A program made the position numbers and the translations under genes. Below are positions 7,508 to 35,426 of a stretch of 64,000 nucleotides of DNA, piece by piece. This DNA comes from Natronococcus amylolyticus DSM 10524 (lineage in GTDB: Archaea > Halobacteriota > Halobacteria > Halobacteriales > Natrialbaceae), in NCBI RefSeq assembly GCF_000337675.1, contig NZ_AOIB01000036.1, forward strand, positions 81,764 to 145,763, in the 5' to 3' direction. The notes under the pieces are model-generated. The model saw nothing but the letters and a program-made list of their open reading frames with translations. It did no database searches and had not been told where the DNA came from. Position 1 is the stretch's first letter; each line of letters begins with the position of its first letter.

Positions 7508-8278
7508 TTAGGAGGAGTCGATCAGCGCGGTCACGTCGTACCCGCCCTCGAGCAAAATTTTGGCGTACCGACCGAACAGCCAGGCCAGTCCGTTGAGCGC
7601 GTGGAGGGTGAGCAGGCCAAGCAGGAGGCCGCTACCGGCGACGACGATCGCCTGCGGAAGCGTCGTAATCTCCCAGTAGCCGACCGTGAGGACCGCCTCG
7701 AACCCGACCAGCAGTTGGTTCCACGCCAGGTAAACGGTCTGGTGGAACTCGGGCGCCCGATCGGTTACGACCCCTACGTACAGCCCCGGCTGGTCGTAGT
7801 ACAGCGGCACGAGGAGCATCGCTAGCGCCGTCGACAGCCCGGTCGTGAGCACGACGAACGAGACGAGACCCAGGACGAACACCGACGGGAGGTAAACGAA
7901 CGGCGTCCAGGTCCGGAGGTCGGTCAGCAGGTCGAGCGCTTGATCCCGCCGCCGGTCGCCCTCGAGTCGACGGCTGCTGTCGATCTCGACCGGCAGCAAG
8001 AGCGTGACGAGCCAGCGTTCGAACTGGGCCGCGAGCAGCGTCACTCCCAGCACGATCGCCAGCATCGGAAGCCCGACGACCAGTATCGTGAGGCTGATGC
8101 CGACCGAGAGGCCGACGACGAGGAAGACAAAGTACGCAAGCCCGAGCGGAAAGGCAAGCAACAGGTAGCCCAGACGACGGTACGTCTCCCGTCGGACGGG
8201 GACCGAGACGAACCACCGAAGTCCGCCACGGAGTCGGTCGGCGCCGAGGTCGAGTCGCTCGGCCGTCGGAGACGCCAT
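7508..8278 (-). CDS. Membrane sensor-domain protein (PF13796-like), copy 1
   Basis: The 256-residue protein has a cytosolic N-terminus and several membrane helices: YLLLAFPLGLAYFVFLVVGLSVGISLTI, then VGLPMLAIVLGVTLLAAQFERWL, and a second hydrophobic half from residue 130. This is the pattern of the 'putative sensor' domain found in some bacterial kinases, here as a stand-alone protein without kinase. A paralogue lies at 9536-10219 with the same N-terminal YLLLAFPLGxAY signature. It is divergent from the HTH gene at 8445, which suggests membrane sensing coupled to that regulator. Confidence 0.75.
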   Translation of the reverse strand: MASPTAERLDLGADRLRGGLRWFVSVPVRRETYRRLGYLLLAFPLGLAYFVFLVVGLSVGISLTILVVGLPMLAIVLGVTLLAAQFERWLVTLLLPVEIDSSRRLEGDRRRDQALDLLTDLRTWTPFVYLPSVFVLGLVSFVVLTTGLSTALAMLLVPLYYDQPGLYVGVVTDRAPEFHQTVYLAWNQLLVGFEAVLTVGYWEITTLPQAIVVAGSGLLLGLLTLHALNGLAWLFGRYAKILLEGGYDVTALIDSS

Positions 8279-8413
8279 CTCGAGGATGACTCCCCGGCGC
8301 GGAAAAATAAACGTTCGGCCCGGTCAGCAACCACCTTCGGATCGGATCCGCTTCGAATCGGCCAGGCTCACAGTACTCGAATACGCTCGAGAGAGGTGTC
8401 GGACGGGAGACAA

Positions 8414-8421
8414 GCTTTTGT
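8414..8421 (+). promoter_or_regulatory. TATA-like element of the HTH operon
   Basis: CTTTTGTT lies 24-31 nt before ATG 8445, the standard haloarchaeal spacing for a leaderless transcript. It supports ATG 8445 as the start over the in-frame ATG at 8286. Confidence 0.45.
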
Positions 8422-8444
8422 TCTTGCTCGAGTACCACACGCCG

Positions 8445-8786
8445 ATGGCCGACGACGGCGAGGTGGACGTCGTCGAGATCCTCGGCGACGACTACGCCAA
8501 GACGATCCTCGTCCGCACCCGCGCCGAACCCCAGTCGGTCCGGGCCCTGAGCGACGCCTGCGACGCCGATCCCTCGACGATCTATCGGCGCGTCGAGCGG
8601 CTCACGGAGGCCGACCTGCTCGAGGCCCACCAGCAGCTCGATCCGGACGGCCACCACCACAAGGTGTACGCGGCCCGGCTTCGGGAAGTTCGGATCCGCC
8701 TCGCCGAGGAGGGGTACGACGTCGAGATCAAACGGGAAGAATCGGCTGCCGACCGCTTCACCAGGCTCTACGAGGGGTTCAAATGA
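8445..8786 (+). CDS. ArsR-like winged-helix regulator
   Basis: The 113-residue protein starts MADDGEVDVVEILGDDYAK and contains a helix-turn-helix, VRALSDACDADPSTIYRRVERLTEADLLEAH, followed by a beta wing and a basic C-terminal segment. It is a small DNA-binding protein of the haloarchaeal ArsR/HTH_20 type. Its stop overlaps the next start (ATGA, 8783-8786), so it is translationally coupled to two membrane paralogues. Together with the flanking sensor-domain genes it forms a likely membrane-to-DNA signalling unit. Confidence 0.82.
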   Translation: MADDGEVDVVEILGDDYAKTILVRTRAEPQSVRALSDACDADPSTIYRRVERLTEADLLEAHQQLDPDGHHHKVYAARLREVRIRLAEEGYDVEIKREESAADRFTRLYEGFK

Positions 8787-9184
8787 GTCCGCGAGCGCGT
8801 CCGACGGTCCTCGAGTTCGTGTCGACCTCGGAGCCGTGGCTGCCGGCTTGGCTCCGGTTCGGATCGATACTCGAGAATACTCCCCTGTCGACGGTCGGAG
8901 GGTCCCCGACCGTGATCGCACTGGTGTTTCTCTCGCTCGTGCTCGCGACGCTGCTGTCGGTGTACCTGGCGCTGCGGCTCTACCGCGGCTACCGCGCCGG
9001 CGGCGGGCGGGCGATGCTCCTGCTGGGCGTCGGGCTCGTGTTGTTGACGACCGTCCCGTTGCTGTTGCGCCTCGCGCTGTCGAACGTCGGGGGCGTGGCG
9101 ATCGTTTGGCAGGAGACGATCGTTACCGCCTGTCAGCTGCTCGGGCTCGTCGTGATTCTGGGGGTGATCCATGGTCGCCGTTGA
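8783..9184 (+). CDS. Small four-helix membrane protein (DUF7521-like), copy 1
   Basis: The 133-residue protein has an N-terminal soluble segment and then hydrophobic helices including VIALVFLSLVLATLLSVYLAL and RAMLLLGVGLVLLTTVPLLLR, and ends at TGA 9182-9184. The motif LYRGYRAGGGRAMLLLGVGL is matched by AYRGYRRNDSLAMFYLSVGI in the next gene, so the two are tandem paralogues. The ATG overlaps the regulator stop. I recall such proteins next to HTH regulators in haloarchaea; the function is unknown. Confidence 0.75.
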   Translation: MSPRARPTVLEFVSTSEPWLPAWLRFGSILENTPLSTVGGSPTVIALVFLSLVLATLLSVYLALRLYRGYRAGGGRAMLLLGVGLVLLTTVPLLLRLALSNVGGVAIVWQETIVTACQLLGLVVILGVIHGRR

Positions 9185-9455
9185 GCCCGCGACGGTGCTG
9201 TTCGCGACGGCGCTGGCGACCGCGATCGTCGGGCTCGTCGTCGCCGGCTACGCCTACCGTGGGTACCGTCGCAACGACAGCCTCGCGATGTTCTACCTCT
9301 CGGTCGGGATCGCGCTGATCGCCGTCGGCCCGGTCGCGGTCAGCTACGGGCTCGCCCCGCTGCTCTCGCTGTCGGACGCGGCCAGCCTGCTCGGCGTGCT
9401 CTGGGTGACCATCGCCGGACTGGTGGCGATCCTCTACTCGCTCGAGGGAACCTAG
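9171..9455 (+). CDS. Small membrane protein (DUF7521-like), copy 2
   Basis: The 94-residue product has three membrane helices and overlaps the previous gene by 14 bases. The internal motif YRGYRRNDSLAMFYLSVGIAL shows that it is a shorter paralogue lacking the soluble N-terminal segment. The tight overlap indicates a third gene in the regulator operon. It might form a heteromeric membrane complex with its neighbour; that is inferred from duplication and overlap only. Confidence 0.75.
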   Translation: MVAVEPATVLFATALATAIVGLVVAGYAYRGYRRNDSLAMFYLSVGIALIAVGPVAVSYGLAPLLSLSDAASLLGVLWVTIAGLVAILYSLEGT

Positions 9456-9535
9456 TACAAAGCTGTTTCGCACGCTGGTCGAGCCGACAGCCCGCGACCC
9501 CGTTTTACCGCCTCGGGAGCCGTCGATCCGTTCGT

Positions 9536-10219
9536 ATGCTATCCAACCGATCCGATGCCGCCGGCTCCGGCGGAGTCGTCCCGACCGAGTCGTCGAACGG
9601 GAGCGGAAGCCGTCCGTTTCGCGTCGCACCGATCGACCCCTGGACGTACCGATCGCTCGCCTACGTCCTGCTCGCGTTCCCGCTCGGGATCGCCTACCTG
9701 GTCGCGATCACCGTCGGCTTCTCGATGACCGTCGGACTGAGCCTCACGCTGCTCGGCCCGATCGCGCTGGTCGCCACGCTGCTGTCGGTCGTCGCGCTCG
9801 CCTGGCTCGACGGCGCCCTCACTCGAGGACTGCTCGCCATCGACGTTACGCCGTCCCTTCCGCCGACCGACGACGGGCTCGTTCCGTTCCTGAAACGGCT
9901 CGTGCTCGGACGAGAAACGTGGCTGGGCGCGGCGTACCTCGGCTGGAAGATCCTGCTCGGGATCGTCGGCTTCGTCGCGCTCGTCGTCGGTGTCTCGCTC
10001 GCGACGAGTCTGCTGGTCACACCCCTCGTCTACGGGACCGACCTCGTGGTGTCCGTCGGCGTCGGCGATCCGATCACGATCGGGACGCTTCCGCGAGCGC
10101 TGGGTGCCGCGACGGGCGGCCTCCTCGTCGGCCTCGGGACGCTGTACCTCGCGAACCTCCTCGGTCGCGTCTCGGCCGTCGTCGCCGCGTCGCTGCTCGA
10201 GGGCCGTGACGAGACGTGA
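9536..10219 (+). CDS. Membrane sensor-domain protein (PF13796-like), copy 2
   Basis: The 227-residue protein has a polar N-terminal 35 residues and then YRSLAYVLLAFPLGIAYLVAITVGF, the signature also present in the divergent copy at 7508-8278. About six hydrophobic helices follow. A TTTTA element near 9502 lies 30 nt before ATG 9536, so it may have its own promoter. The repeated presence of sensor-domain genes at both ends of the HTH operon suggests a dedicated membrane signalling locus. Confidence 0.75.
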   Translation: MLSNRSDAAGSGGVVPTESSNGSGSRPFRVAPIDPWTYRSLAYVLLAFPLGIAYLVAITVGFSMTVGLSLTLLGPIALVATLLSVVALAWLDGALTRGLLAIDVTPSLPPTDDGLVPFLKRLVLGRETWLGAAYLGWKILLGIVGFVALVVGVSLATSLLVTPLVYGTDLVVSVGVGDPITIGTLPRALGAATGGLLVGLGTLYLANLLGRVSAVVAASLLEGRDET

Positions 10220-10304
10220 GAGGCCGAGAAGAGTGTCGAATAAATGATATTCTCGAGCACGGGTTCGGACCCGACGAACTCCTCGAGACAAGAAGCGAAA
10301 TCGG

Positions 10305-24489: not shown

Positions 24490-26289
24490 CTACTCTACCG
24501 TGACGCTTTTCGCCAGGTTTCGAGGCTTGTCGATCGACCGACCCAGCTCGTGGGCCGTCCAGTAGGCGACCCGCTGAAGCTGGACGTTCGCGACCATCGA
24601 GCTCGTGATCTCGCCGGCCGACGGCACCTCGAGGACGTGGTCGGCGTAGCGCCCGACCTCCGATCGGCCGTCGGTGATAGCGACGACCGGTGTCCCCCGA
24701 GCCTCGACCTCCTTGACGTTCCCGATGGTCTTCTCCGCGCGGCGACCGTCGCCGGTGACGATCGCAAACACCGGCGTCTGTTCGGTGACGAGTGCGAGCG
24801 GTCCGTGTTTGAGTTCGCCGGCCGCGAACCCCTCGGCGTGTTTGTACGTGATCTCCTTCATCTTCAGCGCGCCCTCGAGGGCGACTGGGTAGTGATACCC
24901 TCGTCCGATGAAGAAGTAGGCGCTCGCGTCGGCGTACGTCGAGGCGACCTCGCGGGCGGCGTCCTCGTCGAGGACGGACTGGATTCGGTCTGGCACCGAT
25001 CGCAGTTCGCGGACCAGATCACGGGAGCGGTGGTTGCTCAACGCGGCTGCGAGCATCGTCAACGCGGCCTGCTGGGAGGCGAAGGTCTTCGTCGCGGCGA
25101 CGCTGATCTCCGGTCCGGCCCGGATGTACAGCACGCGGTCGGTCTCGCGGGCGGCCGAACTGCCGACGACGTTCGTCACGGCGACCGTCGTCGCGCCGGC
25201 GGCGTTCGCCTCCCGGAGCGCGCGCAGGGTATCCGCGGTCTCGCCGCTCTGGGTGACGCCAACGACGACGGAGTCGGTGTCGATCGGCATCGTCTCCGCC
25301 TCGAACTCGCTGGCCAGGTAGGCGTGGGCCGGCACGCCCCACTCCCGAAACAGCTGTGCGCCGAACAGCGCCGCGTGGTAGGAGGTGCCACAGGCGACGA
25401 ACGTTACGGGCGGGTTCAGCTCGAACCCCTCGAACTCCTCGAGAGTAACCCGGCCGCTGAGCTCGTCGAGGCGTCCCCGGAAACACTCCCGGAGCGCCGA
25501 CGGCTGCTCGTTGATCTCCTTTCGCATGTAGTGGTCGTAGCCGCTCTTGCCGGCGTCCTCGGGATCCCACTCGATCGTCTCGATCGAGGTTTCGACGACC
25601 CGGCCCTCGCTGTCGGTGACCGAGATCTCGTCGCCCTCGAGCCGGGCGAACTCGCCGTCCTCGAGATAGATCACGCGGTCGGTGAACTCGATGAACGCGG
25701 GCACGTCGCTGGCGAGGTAGGTGCCGTCGTCGGCGAGGCCGAGTACCAGCGGCGACTCGTGTCGCGCGGCGTACACCGTCTCGGAGCCCGCGAAAACCGC
25801 GGCGACGGCGTAGCTTCCCTCGAGTCGGTCGATCGCCGCGCGGAACGCGGCCTCGTGGTCGAGCCCGTCCTCGAGGAAGCCGGCGATCAGATGAGGGATG
25901 ACCTCGGTGTCGGTCTCGCTGCGAAAGTCGATGCCCTCGGCCGAGAGCTCGTCGCGCAGCCCCTGGTAGTTTTCGATGATCCCGTTGTGGACGACCGCGA
26001 CCCGGTTTTCGGCGTCCGTGTGAGGGTGGGCGTTGCGGTCCGACGGCGGCCCGTGGGTGCTCCAGCGGGTGTGGCCGATCCCCGTAGTCTGGTTGCCGAT
26101 GTCGGCACCCGCCAGCGCGTTCTCGAGCGCCGAGAGCTCGCCCTGGCGCTTGTGGACATCGAGTTTGCCGTCGGCCAGCGCGATTCCTGCCGAGTCGTAC
26201 CCCCGGTACTCGAGCTGGGAGAGGCCGTGAAGCAAGACGTCGGCCGCGTTCGAGCGATCGGCGCCGACGTAGCCAATGATCCCGCACAT
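24490..26289 (-). CDS. glmS: Glutamine-fructose-6-phosphate aminotransferase (isomerizing)
   Basis: The 599-residue protein starts MCGIIGYVGADRSNAADVLL, so that after Met removal Cys becomes the N-terminal nucleophile of the glutaminase domain. RYSTHG-type motif GHTRWSTHGPPSDRNAHPH follows near residue 70. Two SIS sugar-isomerase domains occupy the C-terminal half (VACGTSYHAAL, VTQSGETADTL, FIGRGYHYPVALEGALKMKE), and the end PRNLAKSVTVE is the conserved tail. It makes glucosamine-6-phosphate for amino-sugar and surface glycan synthesis. ATG 26289 overlaps the stop of the upstream GlmU-like gene (TGATG), so the two are co-expressed. Confidence 0.96.
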   Translation of the reverse strand: MCGIIGYVGADRSNAADVLLHGLSQLEYRGYDSAGIALADGKLDVHKRQGELSALENALAGADIGNQTTGIGHTRWSTHGPPSDRNAHPHTDAENRVAVVHNGIIENYQGLRDELSAEGIDFRSETDTEVIPHLIAGFLEDGLDHEAAFRAAIDRLEGSYAVAAVFAGSETVYAARHESPLVLGLADDGTYLASDVPAFIEFTDRVIYLEDGEFARLEGDEISVTDSEGRVVETSIETIEWDPEDAGKSGYDHYMRKEINEQPSALRECFRGRLDELSGRVTLEEFEGFELNPPVTFVACGTSYHAALFGAQLFREWGVPAHAYLASEFEAETMPIDTDSVVVGVTQSGETADTLRALREANAAGATTVAVTNVVGSSAARETDRVLYIRAGPEISVAATKTFASQQAALTMLAAALSNHRSRDLVRELRSVPDRIQSVLDEDAAREVASTYADASAYFFIGRGYHYPVALEGALKMKEITYKHAEGFAAGELKHGPLALVTEQTPVFAIVTGDGRRAEKTIGNVKEVEARGTPVVAITDGRSEVGRYADHVLEVPSAGEITSSMVANVQLQRVAYWTAHELGRSIDKPRNLAKSVTVE

Positions 26290-27458
26290 CAGCTCCACAC
26301 CTCCGCGTCGGCGACGATGGTTCCGCTGACGGTCGACCCCCCGTGACAGACCGCGCCGTGGCCGACGACAGTCCCTGGCTCGTAGGTCACCCCACCGATG
26401 TCGCGAACGTGATCGGCCAGCACCGCGCCGAGGATCGTCTCCCGGTGAACGCGGTCGCCGATCTCGACGTCACTCGGGCCGCCGGCGACGGTCGAGTTCG
26501 GACCGATCCCGACACCTCGTCCGGTGACGCAGTCTCGTATCGTCGCGCCGTTGTCGACGCGGGTGTCGGCGTCGAGCACCGACCGCTCGACCGTCGCGTT
26601 CGAGCCGATGGTGACGTTCTCGCCCAGAGAGACGTTCGGTCCGACGACCGCGCCGGGACCGACGACGCAGTCGTCGTCGATCACGACCGGTTCGAGCACC
26701 GTTGCGTCCTCGTGGACGGACGCGCTGTCGGCGATCCGCCGTTCCTCGCCGTCCTCGAGTAAGTCGTCGGCGATCCGCAGCAGGTCCCACGGGTAGGTGG
26801 CGTCGATCCAGGTTCCCTCGGAGACGACCCCTCGAACCTCCTCGCCGACTTCGAGCAGCGTCGCGATCCCGTCGACCAGCGACTGCTCGCCGTCGCGGGG
26901 CTCGCTCCGGCGAATCGCCTCGAAGATCGACGGCTCGAAGGCGTAGACGCCGGCGTTGAGCTGGTAGCCCCGATCGTCTCGCGGGTTCTCGACGATTTCC
27001 GTCACCGCACCGTCCTCGAGGAGTACGCCGCCGTACCTGGTAACGTTGGCTCGGCGGACCAGCCCGAGCGTTGCCGTCGCCGGCTCGCGGTCGTGGGCCG
27101 CGATGACGTCCTCGATGATCCGGCTGTCGATCAGCTGGTCGCCGTTGACGACGAGGGTCGACCCCTCGGTCGCCGGCTCGGCCGCGAGTAGCGCGTGGCC
27201 GCTGCCGAGCTGTTTGTCCTGCGTGACGTAGGTCAGCGGCACGTCCCGGTAGCTCGGGCCGAACTCGGACTGGACCCGTGTCCGGCGGTAGCCGACGACG
27301 ACCGTGATGTCGGTGACGCCGGCGTCGATCAGCGCGTCGAAGACGTGCTCGAGAATCGGTTTCGTCGCCGCCGGAAGCATCGGCTTCGGCCGGTGGGTGG
27401 TCAGCGGCCGAAGTCGTCTCCCCTCCCCTGCCGCGAGCACCACTGCGGAGTATCCCAT
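26289..27458 (-). CDS. GlmU-like bifunctional sugar-1-phosphate nucleotidylyltransferase/acetyltransferase
   Basis: The 389-residue protein has an N-terminal nucleotidyltransferase domain (LAAGEGRRLRPLTTHRPKPML at residues 8-28; NGDQLID near 105) and a C-terminal left-handed beta-helix (VVGPGAVVGPNVSLGENVTIGSNATV). In archaea this fusion makes UDP-GlcNAc or dTDP-glucose; coupling to glmS favours the GlcN-1-P acetyl/uridylyltransferase role. A TATA-like CTATTATT at 27481-27488 lies 23-30 nt before the start. Confidence 0.87.
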   Translation of the reverse strand: MGYSAVVLAAGEGRRLRPLTTHRPKPMLPAATKPILEHVFDALIDAGVTDITVVVGYRRTRVQSEFGPSYRDVPLTYVTQDKQLGSGHALLAAEPATEGSTLVVNGDQLIDSRIIEDVIAAHDREPATATLGLVRRANVTRYGGVLLEDGAVTEIVENPRDDRGYQLNAGVYAFEPSIFEAIRRSEPRDGEQSLVDGIATLLEVGEEVRGVVSEGTWIDATYPWDLLRIADDLLEDGEERRIADSASVHEDATVLEPVVIDDDCVVGPGAVVGPNVSLGENVTIGSNATVERSVLDADTRVDNGATIRDCVTGRGVGIGPNSTVAGGPSDVEIGDRVHRETILGAVLADHVRDIGGVTYEPGTVVGHGAVCHGGSTVSGTIVADAEVWS

Positions 27459-27774
27459 GTCTGTTGACAGCTAGCAGCAGCTATTATTCCTTTCGACTGG
27501 GGATTCCGGTCGTATCGACTCCAGTTTCCGACGGCGTCGCCATCGGTGGCGCTCGAGGCCACTCGAGGGGTTATGCGGTGTCGCGAGTACGGTCGCTCCG
27601 TCGGTGCAACATCTGTTGATCGGATCGGTGCCGGACTCGATGGGTGTATATAATTATCCGTGACCTGTCCAGCTTCTTCGCCGGTTTCGATGCTGCAACA
27701 CCCGTTAGATGGCCAGTTATTCCTGGAAGCCGGTCAATTACAGAGTGTGATATGCTCATCGGTCCAACTGCGCT
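27459..27774. other. Divergent promoter region between the GlmU-like gene and the curlin-like gene
   Basis: This 316-base region contains the minus-strand TATA box at 27481-27488 and a strong AT-rich TATATAATTA stretch near 27646-27656 facing the plus-strand gene. The latter is 120 bases before ATG 27775, which would leave an unusually long leader. No gene is seen. Confidence 0.5.
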
Positions 27775-29397
27775 ATGGCAGAAAAGAACACGAACCGCGG
27801 CACGATGAAGCGGAGAGGGTATCTCAAAGGACTCGCAGCGGGCGGACTCGGCGTCGGGACGCTTTCTGTCGCGAGCACCCGTGCGCATGCGGATACGGGT
27901 AAGGACGACGAGAAGAAGAACGACGAGAAGGAGGAGGAAGCGAAGACGCACGATCTCAAGGGCGACGATCTGTACCTGATCTTCGGCGCCGACTCGTCCG
28001 AGAAGGATCTCGGCGGCTGGGTCGACAAGCACCGCGACGAGATCAACGGCGACTCACAGGAGTCCCTCCCGAACGTCATCCAGTACCAGGAGGTCTCCCA
28101 GCTCAACGTGCTCCAGCAGGGCAACGCCGTCAGCATCGCCATCGACGGCGCCGACGCGACGGCCGTCCAGGAGACCGAGCAGGACAACGTCAACGTCCAG
28201 GACGCGAGCGCGGAGTCGATAGACAGCTCATACGAGACGCGAGACGAGACGTTCTACGACCCCAGTCGAGTGCACATCGTCTTCGCCGAGGAGACCGGCT
28301 GCCGGACGTTCTCCGGCTGGGTCTCCAGAGAGGACACCTACGAGAACGGAGCGTCCGCCACCGCGACGATCGAGCAGGAACAGACCGTCGATCAGTTCAA
28401 CTACAACAGCCAGAGCACGTCGATGGCGGTCGCCGAGAAAGGGAGCTGCGCCCGGTCCTACCAGCGTAGCTGGCAGGCAAACGAGAACTACCAGCACGCC
28501 GAGGCCGTCGCGGCGAACATCGGCGAGGGTGACCGACAGGGAGCCGAGGCGTCGGTCGAGCAGGCCCAGGACGTCTCTCAGCTCAACGTCAGCGAACAGG
28601 GCGTCGCCATCGCGATCGCCGTCGGTAAGTGCAGCACCGCGGAGGCCTACCAGCTGAGCTCCCAGCTCAACGTCAACGAGCAGACCGCCGACGCGACGGC
28701 GATCAGCTTCGGCTTCCGGTCGCCCGACGATATCCTCAAGTGCGCCGAGATGGAGGGCGAGCTTCCGGAAGACGCCGTGGAGCGAACGGACGACGGCAAG
28801 GCTCAGTCGAACGGCCAGGCATCGGCGGAGATCACGCAGGTCCAGTGCGTCGGCCAGGAGAACATCAACCTGCAAAACGCCGCCATCGCTCTCGCCAAGA
28901 AAGACAGCGACGCGACCGCCCGACAGGTGAGCTACCAGGGCAACTTCAACGCGCAGGTGGCCACCGCGGAGGGGCTGAACGTCAGCGACGGACGCTGCAG
29001 CGCGTCTACGGTGCTCAACGGCGCCGCCACCAACGACGACGGCTCCTGGGCGCTGGCCTACGAGAACGGCGACAGCGACGTCGACCTCGAGGAGGCCGCT
29101 GCCGGGATCGACCAGTACCAGTTCGTCGAGCAAGTGAACGTCAACGAGCAGTTCAGCGCGATCGCCTACGCCACCCGCTGCGGCGAGGCGACGGCCGAAC
29201 AGCTGAACTACCAGGCGAACCAGAACGTCCAGGTGACCGAGGCGCGCGCGGTCGGCGATGGCGACGGCGAGGAAAAAGACGAGAAGGACGAGAAGAAGGG
29301 TAAGAAGGACGACAAAGGGAAGAAGGACGAGAAGAAGAACGGCAAGGACAAGGAGAAGAAAGACAAGAAGGACGAGAAGAAAAAGACGAAGCACTAA
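27775..29397 (+). CDS. Tat-exported curlin-like repeat protein, candidate functional amyloid
   Basis: The 540-residue precursor has a twin-arginine signal (KRRGYLKG at 12-19, hydrophobic core, AHA cleavage near 39). Five repeats of about 45 residues lie near 101-145, 199-243, 261-307, 354-398 and 445-489. Each repeat has two strands of the type SQLNVxxQG...AxAxxxQ, as in VSQLNVLQQGNAVSIAI and SSQLNVNEQTADATA, the Gln/Asn ladder of curlin. Two copies of a motif GWV (LYLIFGADSSEKDLGGWV near 66-83; VHIVFAEETGCRTFSGWV near 166-183) precede the first two repeats. Most repeats carry a Cys. The tail (500-540) is almost all Lys, Asp and Glu, unusually Lys-rich for a haloarchaeon. ATG 27805 is an alternative start. 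Confidence 0.8.
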   Translation: MAEKNTNRGTMKRRGYLKGLAAGGLGVGTLSVASTRAHADTGKDDEKKNDEKEEEAKTHDLKGDDLYLIFGADSSEKDLGGWVDKHRDEINGDSQESLPNVIQYQEVSQLNVLQQGNAVSIAIDGADATAVQETEQDNVNVQDASAESIDSSYETRDETFYDPSRVHIVFAEETGCRTFSGWVSREDTYENGASATATIEQEQTVDQFNYNSQSTSMAVAEKGSCARSYQRSWQANENYQHAEAVAANIGEGDRQGAEASVEQAQDVSQLNVSEQGVAIAIAVGKCSTAEAYQLSSQLNVNEQTADATAISFGFRSPDDILKCAEMEGELPEDAVERTDDGKAQSNGQASAEITQVQCVGQENINLQNAAIALAKKDSDATARQVSYQGNFNAQVATAEGLNVSDGRCSASTVLNGAATNDDGSWALAYENGDSDVDLEEAAAGIDQYQFVEQVNVNEQFSAIAYATRCGEATAEQLNYQANQNVQVTEARAVGDGDGEEKDEKDEKKGKKDDKGKKDEKKNGKDKEKKDKKDEKKKTKH

Positions 29398-32956: not shown

Positions 32957-34600
32957 ATGCGAAATACGGAGCACCGGCTGCCCGACGGACGGACCGACGG
33001 GCGACGTGCGGACGGGGGGAGCCGCCCCGACGAGACGGACGACGATGACAACGGTCCGGGCTGTCCGGGGTCGCTAATCGTCGTCTCGAACCGTCAGCCG
33101 TACCGCCACGAGTACGAGTCCGAATCGGAGGGCGACGACGGATCCATCGTCGTCGACGAGCCCGCTGGCGGGCTGACCGCCGGACTGGACCCGGTCGTTC
33201 AGGAGGCAAACGGGACCTGGATCGCCTGGGGCGACGGCGAGGCCGACTTCGCGGTCACCGACGCGAACGACTGTGTCTCCGTCCCCCCCGGGGAAGACGC
33301 CTACACCCTCCACCGAATCGACCTTTCGGAGGAAGCGGTCAGCTCCTACTACTACGGGTTCAGTAACCAGGTTCTCTGGCCGCTCTGTCACGAGTTCCCC
33401 GACCTGATCGAGGAGCGAGGCGACTGGGCGAACGACTTCGAGTGGTACCGAACCGTCAACGAGCGGTTCGCCGACGCCGTCGCCGAGCACGCGACGGCCG
33501 AGTCGATCGTCTGGATCCAGGACTACCACTTCGGGCTCGCGCCGCGGCTGATCCGCGAGCGGATCCCGAAGGCCGCGACGATCGCACACTTCTGGCACAT
33601 TCCGTGGCCGACGCCGGAGACGTTCGCGGAGTGTCCCGTCAGCGAGGAGCTCCTCGAGGGACTGCTCGGCAACGACCTGCTGGGATTTCACGTCGATCGG
33701 TACGCGCGGCTGTTCCTCGAGTGCGTCGAGCAGTACCTCGACGGCGCGGTCGTCGACCACGAGGAGTGGCTCGTCGACTACGACGAGGGGACGACCCGGC
33801 TGGCGACTGCGGCGATGGGGATCGACGCCGAAACATACGACGAGCACGCCCGAGCAGTCGAAGATCCGGACGCGCTGCTCGAGGAGTTCGGCGTCTCTCC
33901 CGAGGTCACGCTCGGACTCGGCGTCGACCGCCTCGATTACTCGAAGGGGATCCCCGAACGTCTCGCCGCCCTCGAGCGCTTCTTCGAGCGCAATCCCGAT
34001 CGACGCGGGGAGTTTACGTTCCTCCAGAAGGCGACGCCCTCCCGAACCGGCATTCCGGCCTACGAACGGCTCGGCGACCTCGTTCGAAGCGAGGTTACCC
34101 GAATCAACAGCCGATTCGGCACGGACGACTGGCAGCCGATCGTCTACACCGAGGAGTACGTCCCCCAGGAGAAGCTCTGTGGCCTCTACCGGCGGGCCGA
34201 CGTCATGGTCATCAGTCCGCTGCTGGACGGGATGAACCTCGTCGCCCAGGAGTTCGTCGCCTCCTGTGTCGGCGAGGGTTCCGCCAGCGGAGCGGCGCCG
34301 GGCGAGCCCCACGGTGACGGCGTCCTGTTGTTGAGCGAGCGAACCGGCGCCCACGAACGGCTCGGCGCCGACGCGGTGACGATCGATCCGACCGACACCG
34401 ACGCGTTCGCCGCCGAACTCGAGACCGCGCTGGCGATGCCGGCCAGCGAGCGCCGACGTCGGATGCGGTCGATGCGGACCGACGTGTTCGAGGCCGACCT
34501 CGAGGCGTGGATGGACAGCCAGTTCGACTCGATCCGACGCCTGCACGACCCGAGCGAGTCGAACGACGACGATCCCGGCGCGCGGACCCCACAGATATAA
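32957..34600 (+). CDS. otsA: Trehalose-6-phosphate synthase
   Basis: The 547-residue GT20 glycosyltransferase has a 38-residue acidic extension before LIVVSNRQPY. Family motifs follow: GGLTAGLDPVV, NQVLWPLCHEF, WIQDYHFGLAPRLIRE, FWHIPWPTPE, LGVDRLDYSKGIPERL, and SPLLDGMNLVAQEF. It joins a nucleotide-glucose to glucose-6-phosphate. The next gene begins one base after its stop and encodes the phosphatase, so together they make trehalose, a compatible solute. An earlier start is unlikely, as the upstream sequence is divergent promoter. Confidence 0.94.
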   Translation: MRNTEHRLPDGRTDGRRADGGSRPDETDDDDNGPGCPGSLIVVSNRQPYRHEYESESEGDDGSIVVDEPAGGLTAGLDPVVQEANGTWIAWGDGEADFAVTDANDCVSVPPGEDAYTLHRIDLSEEAVSSYYYGFSNQVLWPLCHEFPDLIEERGDWANDFEWYRTVNERFADAVAEHATAESIVWIQDYHFGLAPRLIRERIPKAATIAHFWHIPWPTPETFAECPVSEELLEGLLGNDLLGFHVDRYARLFLECVEQYLDGAVVDHEEWLVDYDEGTTRLATAAMGIDAETYDEHARAVEDPDALLEEFGVSPEVTLGLGVDRLDYSKGIPERLAALERFFERNPDRRGEFTFLQKATPSRTGIPAYERLGDLVRSEVTRINSRFGTDDWQPIVYTEEYVPQEKLCGLYRRADVMVISPLLDGMNLVAQEFVASCVGEGSASGAAPGEPHGDGVLLLSERTGAHERLGADAVTIDPTDTDAFAAELETALAMPASERRRRMRSMRTDVFEADLEAWMDSQFDSIRRLHDPSESNDDDPGARTPQI

Positions 34601-34601
34601 C

Positions 34602-35426
34602 ATGCAACAGCAGCGAACGAAGCCGAACCCGATCGACGAACTCCGACCCCGAATCCGGACGCGACTCGAGGAGGCGACGGAACTCCTGTTGTGTCTCGAC
34701 TTCGACGGTACGCTGGCGCCGATCGTCGACGATCCCGACGAGGCGGCCCCGACGCGGGCCGTCAGTAACGTTCTCGAGAAGATCACCGACGAGCCGGACG
34801 TGACGACGGCGATCGTCAGCGGGCGCGGGCTCGCCGACGTTCGAGAGCGGGTCGACGGCCCGCGGATCTACGCAGGGAACCACGGCCTCGAACTCGAGCG
34901 CGGTGATTCGGTCGCGGTCCACCCGATCGCCCGAAAGCGCGCCGCGCGCGTCGACGCCGTCTGCGAGGCCCTCGAGATCGCCCTCGATCCGGTTCCGAAC
35001 GCCCGCGTCGAGAACAAGCGCCTGACCGCCACGGTCCACTATCGGTCGGTGCCCGAACCCGCGAGACCGCAGGTCGAGCGACTCACCCGCGAGACCGTCT
35101 CCCGGTTCGGCGGCGAGGGCCTCGAGCTCTCGACCGGGAAGGCAATCCTCGAGATCGGCCCCTCGATCGACTGGGGGAAGGGAAACGCCGTCGGGATGCT
35201 CGTCGCCGACCGCTCGGACGGAACGGTGCCGATCTACATCGGCGACGACGTCACCGACGAGTCCGCGTTTCGAACCGTCGAACCCCGGGGCGTCGGCGTC
35301 CGCGTCGGCGACGACGCGCCGACAGCCGCGTCGGGGCGCGTCCGCTCGCCCGAGCAGGTCGCCTCGTTACTCGAGTGGTTCGCGACGACGGGCGTCGAAC
35401 GGGTTCGGAACGGACCAGTGCCGTGA
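34602..35426 (+). CDS. otsB: Trehalose-6-phosphate phosphatase
   Basis: The 274-residue HAD-family enzyme has motif I LLCLDFDGTLAP near residue 29, motif II TTAIVSGRG near 68, and motif IV YIGDDVTDESAF near 210, with GKAILEIGPSIDWGKGNAV as the TPP-specific segment. It removes phosphate from trehalose-6-phosphate made by the upstream otsA product. The one-base gap shows a single operon. Confidence 0.93.
   Translation: MQQQRTKPNPIDELRPRIRTRLEEATELLLCLDFDGTLAPIVDDPDEAAPTRAVSNVLEKITDEPDVTTAIVSGRGLADVRERVDGPRIYAGNHGLELERGDSVAVHPIARKRAARVDAVCEALEIALDPVPNARVENKRLTATVHYRSVPEPARPQVERLTRETVSRFGGEGLELSTGKAILEIGPSIDWGKGNAVGMLVADRSDGTVPIYIGDDVTDESAFRTVEPRGVGVRVGDDAPTAASGRVRSPEQVASLLEWFATTGVERVRNGPVP

Follow-up and report, generated by a model that had tools for sequence, protein, structure and literature searches.

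A five-unit repeat gene and its surroundings

The analysed window comprises 64,000 nucleotides of Natronococcus amylolyticus DSM 10524 and includes a gene for a 540-aa protein with five Gln/Asn repeat units (Table 1). Its divergent neighbours, a GlmU-like nucleotidyltransferase gene and glmS, had been recognised in an earlier reading of the sequence alone, and their Pfam domains agree. The region between the divergent genes carries TATATAATTAT near 27647, a possible TATA box. The nucleotidyltransferase/glmS pair is also found near the long genes of four other loci (L095, L096, L098 and L101); it lies close to five-unit genes in Natronococcus, and other arrangements are seen in Natronorubrum and Halobiforma.

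Table 1 Positions of the repeat gene, its parts and its divergent neighbours in the window.
Feature	Position	Strand	Basis
glmS (SIS + glutamine amidotransferase)	24490..26298	-	Pfam PF01380, PF13522
GlmU-like nucleotidyltransferase with hexapeptide repeats, divergent neighbour	26289..27458	-	Pfam PF00483, PF24894
316-bp divergent intergenic region, GlmU-like gene / repeat gene	27459..27774	.	Sequence
Long five-unit Gln/Asn-ladder protein gene, 540 aa	27775..29397	+	ORF translation, no internal stops
Twin-arginine signal peptide, KRRGYLKG ... AHA|D	27775..27891	+	Sequence; weak TIGR01409/TIGR02811 matches; Tat motif common to nearly all its clade
First small N-terminal element, LYLIFGAD...GWV, FG invariant	27961..28059	+	Homologue alignments
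Repeat unit 1, residues 95-150	28057..28224	+	Ladder motif + unit profile
Second small element, VHIVFAEE...SGWV	28252..28335	+	G181 invariant (60/60), W182 57/60
Repeat unit 2, residues 193-248	28351..28518	+	Ladder motif + unit profile
Repeat unit 3, residues 255-311	28537..28707	+	Ladder motif + unit profile
Linker between units 3 and 4, short predicted helix 317-323	28711..28809	+	AlphaFold
Repeat unit 4, residues 347-402	28813..28980	+	Ladder motif + unit profile
Repeat unit 5, residues 439-494	29089..29256	+	Ladder motif + unit profile
Lys/Asp/Glu tail, residues 496-540, predicted disordered	29260..29394	+	AlphaFold + composition

The twin-arginine (Tat) signal with an AxA site, as the sequence-only reading had described it, was found at residues 12-19 (motif) and 37-40 (cleavage site), and a short charged stretch separates it from the first small element. 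The tail holds 21 Lys, 9 Asp and 7 Glu in 45 residues and has a net charge of +5 versus -52 for the core, which bears out the contrast with the usual acidic haloarchaeal composition drawn in that reading. GWV is present twice as reported (81-83 and 181-183). Conservation is confined to the second copy, the position of residue 82 being Tyr, Trp or Phe across 60 homologues. Cys was likewise said to occur in most repeats and is present at residues 176, 225, 286, 323, 358, 408 and 469, but only a minority of homologues retain these residues, so there is no conserved Cys ladder. One Cys per repeat and a double GWV were therefore dropped as family features.

Conserved units, homologues and small partners

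The sequence-only reading counted five repeats of about 45 residues; the number stands, but each unit is 55-57 aa long and consists of two half-repeats of 27-28 residues with a QxxxQxNxNxQ core. Linkers of 6-44 aa lie between the units. The motif Q...Q.N occurs ten times in even pairs (residues 105, 132, 203, 230, 265, 293, 357, 384, 449 and 476). When residues 41-495 were shuffled 5000 times, it appeared 0.25 times on average and never more than 4 times. Approximately 300 halves of each type from the 60 homologues yielded the consensus A-x-A-x-V-x-Q-x-Q-x-V-x-Q-x-N-x-N-x-Q-x-x-A-x-A-x-A for the first half and A-x-A-x-Q-x-S-x-Q-x-N-x-N-x-Q-x-G-x-A-x-A-x-N for the second. In the shared core, Gln and Asn show 97-100% conservation, except for one first-half Asn (81%), and the positions alternating with them vary freely. 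Exactly five units were found in 59 of the 60 long proteins, and the ladder is nearly invariant in two homologue alignments (34 and 60 sequences).

The 540-aa gene is under purifying selection, with dN/dS values of 0.16 and 0.26 against two close relatives and zero nonsynonymous changes in ladder codons in the same comparisons. The Gln/Asn ladder that had been proposed is thus real, and both the core conservation and the unchanged ladder codons indicate that homologues preserve it. In the Natronococcus genome (~4.4 Mb) there is a second long copy (73% identical), and protein identity to Natronococcus sp. A-GB1 is 96-97%. With its five conserved units of two half-repeats each and its export signals, the product is best explained as a secreted structural protein.

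Homologues occur in most Natrialbaceae, in Haladaptatus and in a few other haloarchaea. A whole-genome search recovered them from 31 of 61 genomes, all within the window's family, and the unit profile, run across the whole class, was positive in 51 of 242 genomes, 48 of those in the same family. The named loci belong to Natrialbaceae genera, Haladaptatus, Halogranum, Halegenticoccus, Halocatena, Halomicrococcus and Halalkalicoccus. Several are plasmid-borne, and the plasmid copies are annotated solely as hypothetical protein or via PGF-CTERM. Pfam and NCBIfam scans assigned no family apart from PGF-CTERM, an anchor carried by a few long proteins, and weak Tat models. In the maximum-likelihood tree, a mainly Tat clade of 23 rows, to which the window's protein belongs, is split from a Sec clade of 37 rows (support 99/93); this tally counts L073 as Sec although its N-terminus, LGRRGYLKG, is of the Tat type. 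Versions from both clades are present together in some genomes. Besides the small partners described below, clustering of gene neighbourhoods revealed no shared secretion or assembly gene and mainly housekeeping synteny around Sec-clade genes.

A Bacillota MAG (L125, Thermincola ferriacetica) carries three tandem genes with the same Gln/Asn units and without signal peptides (7971-10283, + strand); these may perhaps encode spore-surface proteins. No further bacterial relative was detected in the 10 genomes of that class that were searched, nor any relative in viral contigs and phage records.

In many genomes, the long gene is accompanied by genes for secreted proteins of ~90-200 residues that contain one unit or degenerate half-repeats and commonly start with a MKRTLTITLTVALIGSLMFMGFAGTAAA-like signal. 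The best of these small partners reach E ~1e-10 with an HMM built only from long-protein half-repeats, and many in Natrialbaceae either score weakly (E 1e-5 to 0.05) or were identified from their signal peptide and composition. Both their units and those of the Bacillota proteins align with long-protein units at identical invariant Gln and Asn. At 29 of 61 loci, mostly from the Sec clade, small partners are located upstream of the long gene in divergent orientation. The genome of Haladaptatus salinisoli gives over 20 unit matches and includes five secreted single-unit or part-unit genes in tandem, an array that contains no five-unit gene (L126, 7863-9849, + strand). No single-unit partner was detected at the window locus or elsewhere in its own genome, where two long copies are present.

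Predicted structure and comparison with known amyloids

Two AlphaFold runs, whose input alignments were family-only (60 relatives), both predicted that each unit forms one pair of strands 22-30 residues long, with no other regular structure in the repeats. Confidence was low (mean pLDDT 54.8 and 63.3; pTM 0.54 and 0.61) and differed among the five models. Against 350,542 PDB chains, Foldseek ranked CsgA first for the whole model, weakly (E 0.029); for the repeat region its three best-ranked chains were FapC, CsgA and FapC (E 0.02, 0.08 and 0.7). None of these weak matches is significant by itself, and they give no global superposition. VIA-align placed SufD/SufB (Z 8-10) above CsgA (Z 7.8) for the first model, with S-layer RsaA and adhesin solenoids also among the matches, and returned FapC alone (Z 3.6) for the repeat-only model. 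Sequence-profile searches of PDB chains gave nothing usable. Structure prediction, suggested earlier as a check, thus delivered the long paired strands and put CsgA and FapC at the top of the Foldseek ranking, but at low confidence and through weak individual matches. These data fit a beta-solenoid rather than prove one, and the structural matches suggest that the units may stack.

The claim that the repeats are curlin-like by sequence fails; as an analogy, the comparison with curli stands. The curlin model PF07012 matched none of the 60 homologues and nothing in the window's own genome. A curlin HMM built from E. coli CsgA/B and Haloterrigena-type curlin repeats gave the family a median of -0.6 bits, versus 0.4 for shuffles and 104 for CsgA, which is in its training set; in the reverse search, the ladder-family HMMs failed to match CsgA or CsgB. 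Published CsgA repeats have ~23 residues and N-x-psi-x-psi-x-Q motifs (PMC10192328), and curlin repeats of ~22-23 residues differ in both motif and length from the halves and units of this family. What the family shares with CsgA/CsgB are strands of alternating residues with Gln/Asn ladders, and long and small subunit genes that lie close together in many genomes. CsgG (PF03783) was absent from 37 related genomes (the E. coli control was positive), consistent with the earlier remark that no CsgG-like secretion gene is near, and as is to be expected where there is no outer membrane.

FapC almost invariably has three repeats, which are stacked via Asn/Gln networks (PMC12822426). The family resembles it in having few long imperfect repeats in a fixed number, variable linkers and a conserved, presumably hydrogen-bonded Asn/Gln network, but differs in the number of repeats (five rather than three) and in export by Tat or Sec in cells lacking an outer membrane; no Fap-type secretion system was noticed nearby. 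No sequence similarity to FapC was detected, as the unit profile matches no PDB chain up to E 10 and FapC structures are in the PDB.

True curlin proteins do occur in haloarchaea. Two Haloterrigena-type proteins scored above the Pfam cut-off for PF07012 (L127, 1300-2106, - strand; L128, 925-1617, + strand) and have tandem DADVDQxNxAxVxQDGxN repeats behind an MKRTL-type signal peptide. Like the ladder family they are haloarchaeal, secreted and built of Gln/Asn repeats, but their repeats are genuine curlin repeats and the ladder-family HMM does not match them. The one unnamed archaeal protein with curli-like repeats reported by Dueholm et al. in 2012 (PMC3521004) is more likely to be of this type than a member of the ladder family. 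The sheath proteins of Methanospirillum and Methanosaeta (MspA) are likewise archaeal amyloid-like extracellular proteins, a likeness based on literature descriptions only (PMC6242892, PMC10593813).

A candidate cell-surface fibre and its alternatives

Haloferax volcanii biofilms stain for amyloid, and the 2014 study suggested HVO_1403 only by homology (PMC4180959); that gene has since been listed as unconfirmed (PMC12520557). The haloarchaeal biofilm amyloid lacks a confirmed gene, and the ladder family offers named, testable genes in many culturable Natrialbaceae and Haladaptatus species. The ladder protein is, in our view, a good candidate for an archaeal fibre of the cell surface that has yet to be described. 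The possible archaeal surface amyloid of the sequence-only reading is partly supported, by its conserved ladder, its predicted paired strands and its novelty, no description of the family having been found in the literature searched (subscription papers and preprints lay mostly outside its reach), but loses its curlin identity.

The reading we prefer, at a probability of roughly 0.5, is a secreted ladder beta-solenoid whose copies stack to form a fibre of the surface or matrix. Its design is best read as FapC/CsgA-like, evolved separately or very anciently and unrelated in sequence; known here from genes and predicted structures, the family would work like CsgA and FapC while being neither. 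Alternate residues (Ala, Val/Ile, Gln and Asn) would face inwards, each unit forming two long strands packed face to face, and the five units may together build a stacked beta-solenoid in which Gln/Asn ladders supply the hydrogen bonds that hold it. Open strand edges at its ends would allow subunits to stack into cell-surface or biofilm-matrix fibres. Where single-unit secreted partners are present, they may join the long protein or be nucleated by it, and versions with PGF-CTERM would tether the fibre to the membrane. The window's clade has Tat export and no anchor; there the charged, Lys-rich tail may bind the protein to acidic polymers of the surface. The repeat, the conservation of its ladder, the constant unit number, the secretion signals, the partner genes and the anchors are observed; the steps from solenoid stacking and polymerisation to the role of the small proteins and tail binding are those that we infer. 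If this is true, the family would show export and anchoring of ladder fibres without an outer membrane; the single-unit secreted proteins divergent to the long gene and the PGF-CTERM anchors on some long proteins are newly found here.

A more specific version, quite possible and held tentatively, is a two-component archaeal fibre in which single-unit secreted proteins polymerise on a five-unit protein that serves as their nucleator, anchor or adaptor; it would use no dedicated secretion channel and be unrelated in sequence to curli/Fap, its repeat also occurring, without signal peptides, in one Bacillota genome. The main reason to be cautious about any fibre is the Tat export of the window's clade: Tat ordinarily carries proteins that are already folded, and an aggregation-prone chain would then need control in the cytoplasm. 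For that clade, Tat export also speaks against the curli mechanism having been copied directly.

That same Tat signal favours the main rival, a secreted beta-solenoid that stays monomeric, as an adhesin or an S-layer-associated spacer, and whose ladder does no more than keep the fold stable at high salt. The unit number fixed at five, the insertions between units, the VIA-align matches to SufD/SufB, RsaA and adhesin solenoids and the PGF-CTERM anchors of some homologues point the same way. Low AlphaFold confidence, the weak structural matches, the SufD/SufB scores above CsgA and the missing single-unit partner in the window's own genome count against a fibre as well. However, free single-unit secreted relatives make little sense for a monomeric solenoid and resemble stackable subunits, and the closest Foldseek ranks are functional amyloids. 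We regard the monomer as possible but somewhat doubtful.

The two other alternatives are weaker. A repeat of cell-wall or spore-coat type, binding polymer or mineral through its repeat face, would suit both the glmS and GlmU-like pair near the long genes and the Bacillota relatives, which lack signal peptides and adjoin what we take, by eye, to be a YheC/YheD-like spore-coat-associated protein and a CapA-like protein; it is unlikely, since outward residues are variable and the conserved ones are expected inside. Least probable, and already disfavoured, is a true curlin (CsgA/B) member that diverged past the Pfam model. Its alternating polar and small strands with a Gln/Asn ladder do resemble the published curlin motif, and the Haloterrigena-type curlin proteins have a similar short signal peptide, but the failed PF07012, curlin HMM and reverse searches and a unit of 55-57 rather than 22-23 residues all speak against it.

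Elsewhere in the window, adjoining genes for trehalose-phosphate synthase (GT20) and trehalose-phosphatase (32957-35426, + strand) may provide a trehalose osmolyte pathway.
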